From assembly GCF_021462505.1 (NCBI RefSeq), contig NZ_JAKEDV010000001.1:124439-188438 (forward strand): DNA of 64,000 nucleotides, given 5' to 3'. The notes beneath the pieces were generated by a model, which ran no database searches, was not told the DNA's origin, and saw only the letters and a program-made list of their open reading frames with translations. This document shows positions 8,964-54,425 of this stretch, piece after piece. Position numbers and translations under genes: made by a program. Positions within the stretch are counted from its first letter, which is position 1. Every line of letters starts with the position of its first letter. Source of the DNA: Thermus brockianus (GTDB lineage: Bacteria; Deinococcota; Deinococci; Deinococcales; Thermaceae).

Positions 8964-8970
8964 AGGAAGT

Positions 8971-9346
8971 GCCCCGGGTCAGGGGTGCGGTCGCGCTCAA
9001 GGGTCCGAACCCCCTTGGGTGAGGAAAGTCCGGGCACCATAGGGCAGGGTGCCAGCTAACGGCTGGGCGGGGTAACCCGACGGAAAGTGCCACAGAGAAG
9101 AGACCGCCAGCGGCCGGGCCCAAGGCCCGGTGCGGGCAAGGGTGAAACGGTGGGGTAAGAGCCCACCGCCTGGCCTGGTAACAGGCTGGGGCACGGCAAA
9201 CCCCACCCGGTGCAAGGCCCAGTAGAGGGGAAGGGCTTGCCCGGCCCGCCAGAACCCCTGGGATGGGCCGCTTGAGGCCGGTGGCGACACCGGTCCCAGA
9301 GAGATGACCGCAGAAACAGAACCCGGCTTACGCCCTGTCCCGGGGC
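8971..9346 (+). ncRNA. rnpB: complete RNase P RNA (bacterial type A) carried by the prophage
   Basis: This is the ribozyme that matures tRNA 5' ends, and it is essential in bacteria. The 376-nt gene has all landmarks: closing helix P1 from GCCCCGGG (8971-8978) and CCCGGGGC (9339-9346), GAGGAAAGTCCGGGC (9021-9035), the GGTAACAGGCTGGGGCACGG region (9177-9196), GCAAGGCCCAGTAGAGGGG and the conserved ACAGAACCCGGCTTA (9316-9330). P1 extends to 13 of 14 possible pairs. It is uninterrupted and has its own promoter, while the host copy at 22279-22514 is cut. The first 236 nt differ from the host copy at only four positions (RNA nt 9, 10, 34, 37). A protein gene starts 15 nt downstream. Confidence 0.95.
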
Positions 9347-22278: not shown

Positions 22279-22514
22279 GTGGGGTTTGCCGTGCCCCAGC
22301 CTGTTACCAGGCCAGGCGGTGGGCTCTTACCCCACCGTTTCACCCTTGCCCGCACCGGGCCTTGGGCCCGGCCGCTGGCGGTCTCTTCTCTGTGGCACTT
22401 TCCGTCGGGTTACCCCGCCCAGCCGTTAGCTGGCACCCTGCCCTATGGTGCCCGGACTTTCCTCACCCAAGGGGGTTTGGCCCCTTGAGCGCGACCGCAC
22501 CCCTATCCCGGGGC
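22279..22514 (-). pseudogene. rnpB: host RNase P RNA gene, truncated by the prophage
   Basis: Read on the minus strand from 22514, the first 236 nt match the prophage rnpB at 232 positions (differences at RNA nt 9, 10, 34 and 37). The match stops abruptly after GGCAAACCCCAC, where prophage DNA begins. The lost part includes the 3' strands of P1, P2 and P4 and the CCA-binding region, so the fragment cannot be catalytic. The promoter is intact. The remaining 3' part should lie beyond the left end of the prophage. By position (22522-22550 promoter, chromosomal genes beyond) this is the original host gene. Confidence 0.95.
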
Positions 22515-22521
22515 ATCCTTT

Positions 22522-53316: not shown

Positions 53317-53345
53317 TTGTTCCCCAGGGCGGGGTCTGGTATAAA
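53317..53345 (+). promoter_or_regulatory. promoter of the riboswitch-controlled gene
   Basis: TTGTTC (53317-53322), 17 nt, TATAAA (53340-53345), leading into the riboswitch at about 53352. Confidence 0.75.
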
Positions 53346-53351
53346 GGTACC

Positions 53352-53470
53352 TGCGGGGAGTAGCCGCCCCCATTCGGGGGCCAGCCGGTCGTCAGTACGG
53401 GAGGTTTCCCCGGTCGGCTGGGGCGCTTTAGGCGCATGGCGAGACCACCTAAAAGGTGGCCTCGGTTTTT
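53352..53470 (+). promoter_or_regulatory. yybP-ykoY (manganese) riboswitch with terminator
   Basis: The leader has both conserved loops of the manganese-sensing class: GGGGAGTAGC (53355-53364) and GGTCGTCAGTACGG (53387-53400), then GGCGAGACC near the 3' end (53438-53446). A terminator follows directly, sharing the last aptamer bases: CGAGACCACCT, AAA, AGGTGGCCTCG, GTTTTT (to 53470). Binding of Mn2+ would be expected to prevent the terminator and switch on the zinc-metalloprotease gene at 53496. Confidence 0.85.
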
Positions 53471-53495
53471 GCTACGTCCCGCAAGGAGGTGAAGC

Positions 53496-54176
53496 ATGGA
53501 CTTACTGGCGATCGCGCTCATGGCCGTGGTTTTCGTGGCTAGCCTGGCCATTCAAGGGGGTCTGCAGGCCACCTTCGCCCGCTTCAGCCGGGTGGCCAAC
53601 GCCCGGGGGCTCACCGGGGCCCAGGTGGCCCGGGCCATCCTGGACGCACACGGGCTCACCCACGTGCGGGTGGAACCGGTGCCCGGGGCCTTGACGGACC
53701 ACTATGACCCGCACGCCAAGGCGGTGCGGCTATCCGAGCCCAACTACGCTTCGCCAAGCCTCGCCGCTTTGGCGGTGGCGGCCCACGAGGTGGGGCATGC
53801 GGTGCAGGACGCCCAGGGCTACGCTTGGCTCAGGGTGCGGGCAAGCCTTTGGCCCGCGGCGAGCCTCGGGAGCAACCTGGGGCCCATCCTGGTGGTGCTC
53901 GGGCTCATGGTGGGGGCCTTGGGCTTGGCGAAGCTCGGGCTTTACCTCTACCTGGCGGTGGCCTTCTTCCAGCTCATCACCCTGCCCGTGGAGTTTGACG
54001 CCTCCCGGAGGGCCCTGGACTTCCTGAAGCGCATGGGCTTCCTGGACGCCCGGGAGATGGGCCCGGCGCGGCAGGTGCTCACCTGGGCGGCCCTGACCTA
54101 CGTGGCGGCCCTGGCCAGCTCCCTGGCCACCATCCTCTACTACGCCAGCCTCCTCATGGGGCGGAGGGAGGAGTAG
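53496..54176 (+). CDS. YugP-type membrane zinc metalloprotease
   Basis: The 226-residue protein has an N-terminal helix ([18 protein letters not shown]), the metalloprotease site [14 protein letters not shown] (HExxH, about residue 94), and three membrane helices, with EFDAS as the likely third ligand region. Controlled by the manganese-type riboswitch upstream; GGAGG precedes ATG 53496. Substrate unknown. A neighbouring zinc-finger gene starts 1 nt after the stop. Confidence 0.85.
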
Positions 54177-54425
54177 ATGCCCCTTCTCCTCTGCCCCCAG
54201 TGCGGCGTGGGCATGAAGGAGGTGGAGCGCCGGGGGGTGCTCATAGACGTCTGCCCCCAGTGCGGGGGGGTGTGGTTGGACCGGGGGGAGCTGGAAAAGC
54301 TCCTCGCCGAGGCCCGGGCGGTGGAGAGGGCCTACGAGGAGGAGCGGGAGGCCTACTACCGCAAGGAGGGCAAACCCTACAAGAAAAAGAAAGGCTTCTT
54401 GGAATTCTTTGACCTTTTTGACTGA
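54177..54425 (+). CDS. small TFIIB-type zinc ribbon protein
   Basis: The 82-residue protein has CPQCG (residues 6-10) and CPQCGGVWLDRGEL (26-39), the zf-TFIIB pattern, then a charged helix and a KKKKG tail. Often paired with metalloproteases or heat-shock genes; role unknown. Cotranscribed with the YugP-type gene. Confidence 0.85.
   Translation: MPLLLCPQCGVGMKEVERRGVLIDVCPQCGGVWLDRGELEKLLAEARAVERAYEEEREAYYRKEGKPYKKKKGFLEFFDLFD

Follow-up and report, generated by a model that had tools for sequence, protein, structure and literature searches.

The leader of the yugP operon of Thermus brockianus, found within a 64,000-nucleotide stretch of genomic DNA (the window), is, judging by its sequence, very probably a member of the yybP-ykoY (Mn2+) riboswitch class. 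The class is a known one; what is unusual is the target, an operon encoding a putative membrane metallopeptidase and a zinc-ribbon protein, and the expression platform is a variant. For this leader we infer Mn2+ binding, a response to Mn2+, and the direction of control, and control of the Mn2+-ON type appears likely. The explanation that we favor for the data as a whole, with somewhat less assurance, is a transcriptional Mn2+-ON riboswitch that controls the yugP-zinc-ribbon operon. A sequence-only reading of this DNA had described both conserved loops and an overlapping terminator ahead of yugP and the zinc-ribbon gene; our analysis confirmed this observation, with L1, L3, and L1′ occurring in that order.

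The operon lies on the forward strand and is laid out as an extended -10 promoter, the aptamer, a terminator, a GCUAC element, a Shine-Dalgarno sequence, yugP, and the zinc-ribbon gene. The promoter was read from the sequence (53317..53345) and consists of a -35 box TTGTTC (53317-53322), a 17-nt spacer, and an extended -10 element TGgTATAAA (TGGTATAAA; 53337-53345). Its TATAAA and TTG were kept in nearly all Thermus loci in an alignment of the upstream regions, and the RNA is predicted to start near 53353, at the first aptamer base or close by. A simple promoter scan omitted this promoter because of the A at position 6 of the -10 element. The sequence-only reading, whose start at 53317 coincides with the -35 box, included neither the P1* helix nor the weak P1.1 nor the terC riboswitch described below. 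The aptamer (53353..53446) was delimited by an RF00080 match, a shuffle control, and genus-wide conservation. It opens with the 5′ strand of L1, which forms part of the metal core (GGGGAGTAGC, as RNA GGGGAGUAGC; 53355..53364), followed by the conserved P2 hairpin GCCCCC-AUUC-GGGGGC (53366..53381). The P3 helix (CCAGCCGG paired with CGGCUGG; 53381..53421) encloses an inner hairpin and the L3 loop CGUCA (CGTCA in DNA; 53390..53394). A small conserved hairpin, GGCGC-UUUA-GGCGC (53422..53435), and the conserved L1′ strand GGCGAGACC (53438..53446), which is common to the aptamer and the terminator, complete the element. By homology, the adenosine of L3 would be the Mn2+ binder, corresponding to A41 in Lactococcus lactis and A48 in Xanthomonas oryzae, for which this role has been described (PMC6754395). 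The Shine-Dalgarno sequence AAGGAGG (53483..53489) directly follows the 3′ end of P1*.

In a permissive search, RF00080 was by far the top Rfam match at the aptamer, with 25.1 bits (E 3.4e-5) against a curated gathering score of 45 bits, and at the gathering score no riboswitch was found anywhere in the window. Low scores are general in this clade: not one of 111 Deinococcota genomes reaches the RF00080 cut-off, although several of them, Meiothermus among others, carry the element before terC. A gapped three-part pattern of L1, L3, and L1′ matched the window once and matched none of 100 dinucleotide shuffles, so that the assignment to the yybP-ykoY class made in the sequence-only reading was borne out by the top Rfam match and the three-part motif alike. 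In an alignment of 24 diverse Deinococcota aptamers that includes terC-type members, GGGAGTAGC of L1, CGTCA of L3, and AGA of L1′ were invariant; L1′ aligned with the terC-type members, and P2, P3, and the small hairpin were recovered in a consensus fold of 24 sequences. The leader resembles the RF00080 members upstream of yybP in L. lactis and X. oryzae in L1 (GGGAGUAGC), L3 (CGUCA), L1′ (GNNAGACC), and the junction hairpins, and also in having a terminator that captures L1′ and the 3′ strand of P1.1. It differs from them in its weak P1.1, the extra helix P1*, and a protease operon as the target. Mn2+ was assigned as the ligand by sequence homology, which leaves room for a leader that senses something else; this is very improbable, as no change is seen in the metal core or in its Mn-selective adenosine, and the same core stands before terC in the same genomes.

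Members of the yybP-ykoY class usually regulate genes for export or detoxification, terC being the classic target. Of 27 Thermus genomes, 26 contained yugP, the sole exception being a 65% complete assembly. The sequence-only reading had proposed looking for the same gene pair with its riboswitch in other Thermus, and the outcome was positive: L1, L3, and L1′ were intact at 24 of the 26 yugP loci, and in the same 24 the zinc-ribbon gene directly followed. The core pattern occurred exactly twice per genome in 24 of the 27 genomes and once in the other three, and a reversed control pattern gave no match across the Thermus genomes. In the genomes examined, the two cores sit at yugP and terC, the second copy preceding one terC gene. 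That one genome has the same core at this classic target speaks most strongly for counting the yugP copy as a genuine member of the class. Rfam missed the terC copy (L114) even at an E value of 10, and the three-part pattern found it. The number of terC genes per Thermus genome ranges from one to three and is mostly three, and one of them is kept under the riboswitch. In the genome studied here, this second Mn2+ riboswitch lies before a terC gene on the minus strand (G000:C2:69982-70061). We also considered a shift of the riboswitch from terC to yugP after loss of terC, and rejected it since terC is retained with its riboswitch in Thermus genomes.

The intrinsic terminator (CGAGACCACCUAAAAGGUGGCCUCG-GUUUUU; 53440..53470) was identified by folding and covariation. 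Its hairpin (53440-53464), followed by a T-run, had a predicted energy of -14.9 kcal/mol (z -2.7) and has GAGACC in common with L1′, and so the overlap claimed in the sequence-only reading holds. The 5′ arm, CGAGACCACC, contains L1′ together with the would-be P1.1 strand; the aptamer and the terminator are therefore mutually exclusive. The stem covaries: it reads ACCACC/GGUGG in Thermus and ACCGCA/UGCGG in L098, the corresponding locus of a sister genus. In L. lactis (PMC11087558) and X. oryzae (PMC6754395), Mn2+ stabilizes P1.1 and blocks the overlapping terminator. In the Thermus yugP leaders, P1.1 reached only -0.8 to -2.7 kcal/mol and in most of them consisted of just GG/CC plus mismatches, compared with -4.4 to -6.6 kcal/mol in the terC copies and a complete GCGG/CCGC in L098. 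The terC-linked riboswitch of Thermus and Meiothermus is like the yugP leader in its metal core and its GACCACC/GGUGGUC-type terminator but differs from it in having a strong P1.1 (GGUUGG/CCACC), no GCUAC element, and no P1*.

The weak P1.1, together with U-tracts that are degenerate in several Thermus species, would fit a leader that is a drifting copy and a poor Mn2+ switch, in which the main effect of P1* would be on the stability or translation of the mRNA. Two species in which L3 was lost but L1 and GCTAC were retained point the same way. We consider this reading rather improbable, given that the other 24 Thermus loci show almost no variation in L1, L3, and L1′, which is unexpected under drift. 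The two yugP leaders that lost the CGUCA loop, the only ones in Thermus, are L020 (genome G025) and L026 (genome G018), and in both genomes the zinc-ribbon gene was absent genome-wide. This joint loss of L3 and the zinc ribbon gave a Fisher p of 0.003, uncorrected for relatedness, and the two loci fall on different branches of the YugP tree, so that two independent Thermus lineages are represented. We read the co-loss in two lineages as pointing to a connection between Mn2+ control and the zinc ribbon.

The long helix P1* is new here and differs from the studied expression platforms. Its 3′ arm, GCUACGUCCCGC (53471..53482), pairs with GCGGGGAGUAGC at 53353-53364: a GCUACnnCCC(GC) element just 5′ of the ribosome site is complementary to (GC)GGGGAGUAGC, that is, to the L1 strand. 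RNAalifold predicted P1* unprompted in the consensus fold of 24 sequences, and it was present in the minimum-energy fold of the window leader (fold z -3.1); pairing energies ranged from -15 to -29 kcal/mol. Pairing was stronger between arms taken from the same species than between permuted arms (p about 0.002, 5000 permutations, relatedness uncorrected). P1* was seen again in L098, where it has a one-base bulge, and is confined to Thermus and this one sister genus; it was absent from the terC copies, where the best pairing was much weaker. Because the 3′ arm lies beyond the terminator, P1* would be active only in read-through RNA. In a simulation at 65 °C, which is crude and in which species differ, the openness of the ribosome site was 0.56 with P1* available versus 0.30 with L1 and L1′ held unpaired. 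We rejected a role of P1* in masking the ribosome site, as the simulation on average gave the opposite direction. The higher openness with P1* leads us to suggest that the helix keeps the read-through mRNA translatable; that it locks this RNA in a translatable fold is a possibility, and a somewhat unlikely one.

PF04298 proteases occur widely, and, to our knowledge, hardly any function has been assigned to them. The yugP gene (53496..54176) encodes a protein of 226 amino acids with the motif HEVGH at residues 97-101 and a PF04298 match (E 7.3e-82) covering residues 6-219, its full length. Directly after the yugP stop codon begins the gene for the zinc-ribbon protein (54177..54425; 82 amino acids, CPQC...CPQC), which matched PF13453 (Zn_ribbon_TFIIB, E 1.3e-20); the two Pfam matches corroborate the gene identities given earlier from sequence. 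HExGH was invariant in 15 diverse homologues. By family and motif, YugP is a putative membrane metallopeptidase with predicted proteolytic activity, and it is like Zn_peptidase_2 (PF04298) proteins in its full-length Pfam match, its HEVGH motif, and its long membrane-type helices. The predicted structure was confident (pLDDT 92.6) and placed HEVGH in a helix that precedes the final three long helices. NCBIfam had no match for either protein, no solved relative of YugP was found by sequence, and Foldseek with the YugP model returned nothing at an E value below 0.9. A second structure aligner gave middling matches only, among them IrrE, ArdC, and ZMPSTE24. Some Thermus genomes have a second, distant YugP-like protein (L028-L031), about 40% identical along part of the chain; upstream of L028, the one such locus checked, no riboswitch core was seen. 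In Bacillus subtilis, YugP is known from spore membranes, and its deletion together with htrC causes a small delay in germination (PMC13393411). Among open-access papers, we found none linking YugP with the yybP-ykoY riboswitch.

Among 60 further Deinococcota YugP loci surveyed, the riboswitch preceded yugP in three genomes: G071, of a sister genus of the Thermaceae (L098, also with the zinc ribbon), G100, and G109. The riboswitch was lacking from most YugP genes, both in other phyla and across most Deinococcota; in a GTDB-wide genome sample, the link was seen at 0 of 78 YugP loci outside Thermus. Unlike Thermus, most genomes examined have PF04298 genes without this element. The adjoining zinc ribbon was found, among the loci compared, only in Thermus and the genus g5. 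On a tree of 86 YugP sequences, the riboswitch link required five changes, consistent with three gains in Deinococcota and two losses, the tree being a quick one on which gains and losses are hard to separate. In G100 and G109, the aptamer is separated from yugP by about 100-200 bases. At both loci (L107 and L089), this interval contains a possible reading frame, about 40 codons long, whose Shine-Dalgarno sequence adjoins the aptamer, and the two possible peptides do not resemble each other. In Meiothermus, the riboswitch also precedes terC. Elements like the Mn2+ riboswitch stand before genes of the CaCA type (sodium/calcium-antiporter-like) twice in the genome G097 (L049, L052).

Under the mechanism that we favor, at low Mn2+, GAGACCACC would pair with GGUGGCCUC and transcription would stop at the U-tract. 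At high Mn2+, the L1 strands would dock with L3 around the ion, holding L1′ in the aptamer and delaying the terminator, and yugP and the zinc ribbon would be made jointly with terC, which has its own riboswitch copy at another site in the genome. After the polymerase has moved on, GCUACnnCCCGC downstream would pair with the 5′ end to form P1*, which may fix the decision, cover the 5′ end, and leave the ribosome site open. Most likely, Mn2+ excess would turn on yugP and terC together. The suggestion in the sequence-only reading that the protease acts in metal homeostasis gained strength from the terC copy in the same genomes and from the recurrence in other Deinococcota.

TerC proteins act at the Sec translocon and copurify with HtpX and FtsH, and FtsH is essential in the absence of TerC (PMC10550928). 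YugP may be a metallopeptidase for membrane quality control when Mn2+ is in excess, possibly working next to TerC at the Sec translocon; we put forward this role in membrane or translocon quality control tentatively, at less than even confidence. Distinctly doubtful, as the more elaborate proposal, is a two-layer Mn2+ riboswitch in Thermus and its sister genus, in which the aptamer would set termination and P1* would then capture L1 irreversibly and open the ribosome site, driving a Mn2+-responsive membrane protease and a zinc-ribbon partner that work with TerC.

Mn2+-induced YugP could instead remove a Mn2+-permeable transporter such as MgtE, much as YqgP and FtsH of B. subtilis cleave MgtE under high Mn2+ and protect the cells (PMC7231995). 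MgtE is present in the Thermus genome studied here, and a Nramp importer was not detected with the models used. The two systems would have in common the idea of Mn2+-responsive membrane proteolysis (PMC7231995), but YqgP is a rhomboid serine protease in a system with metal sensing at the protein level and no riboswitch. YugP is no rhomboid, and no physical or gene-order link ties it to MgtE, which makes this reading unlikely. Alternatively, YugP or the zinc ribbon might need Mn2+ or be protected by it, the operon being on when the metal is available. HExxH enzymes can use Mn2+, and the fold of YugP resembles IrrE/PprI and Mn-bound ArdC at Z scores of 5.6 and 6.4, below the level of kinship. 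With the class usually found at export and detoxification genes, and terC under common control here, we regard a Mn2+ requirement as quite unlikely.

Control by a Mn2+ riboswitch, apparently gained repeatedly and common with terC, makes Mn2+ excess a concrete condition under which to seek the role and substrates of PF04298 proteases. It also suggests membrane proteolysis as part of Mn2+ homeostasis beyond YqgP-FtsH of B. subtilis, and offers a Mn2+ riboswitch with an expression platform unlike those studied.

Elsewhere in the window, 237 bases on the minus strand (22279-22515) match the 5′ portion of the RNase P RNA gene (near 8970-9206) at 98% identity and represent a truncated second copy.
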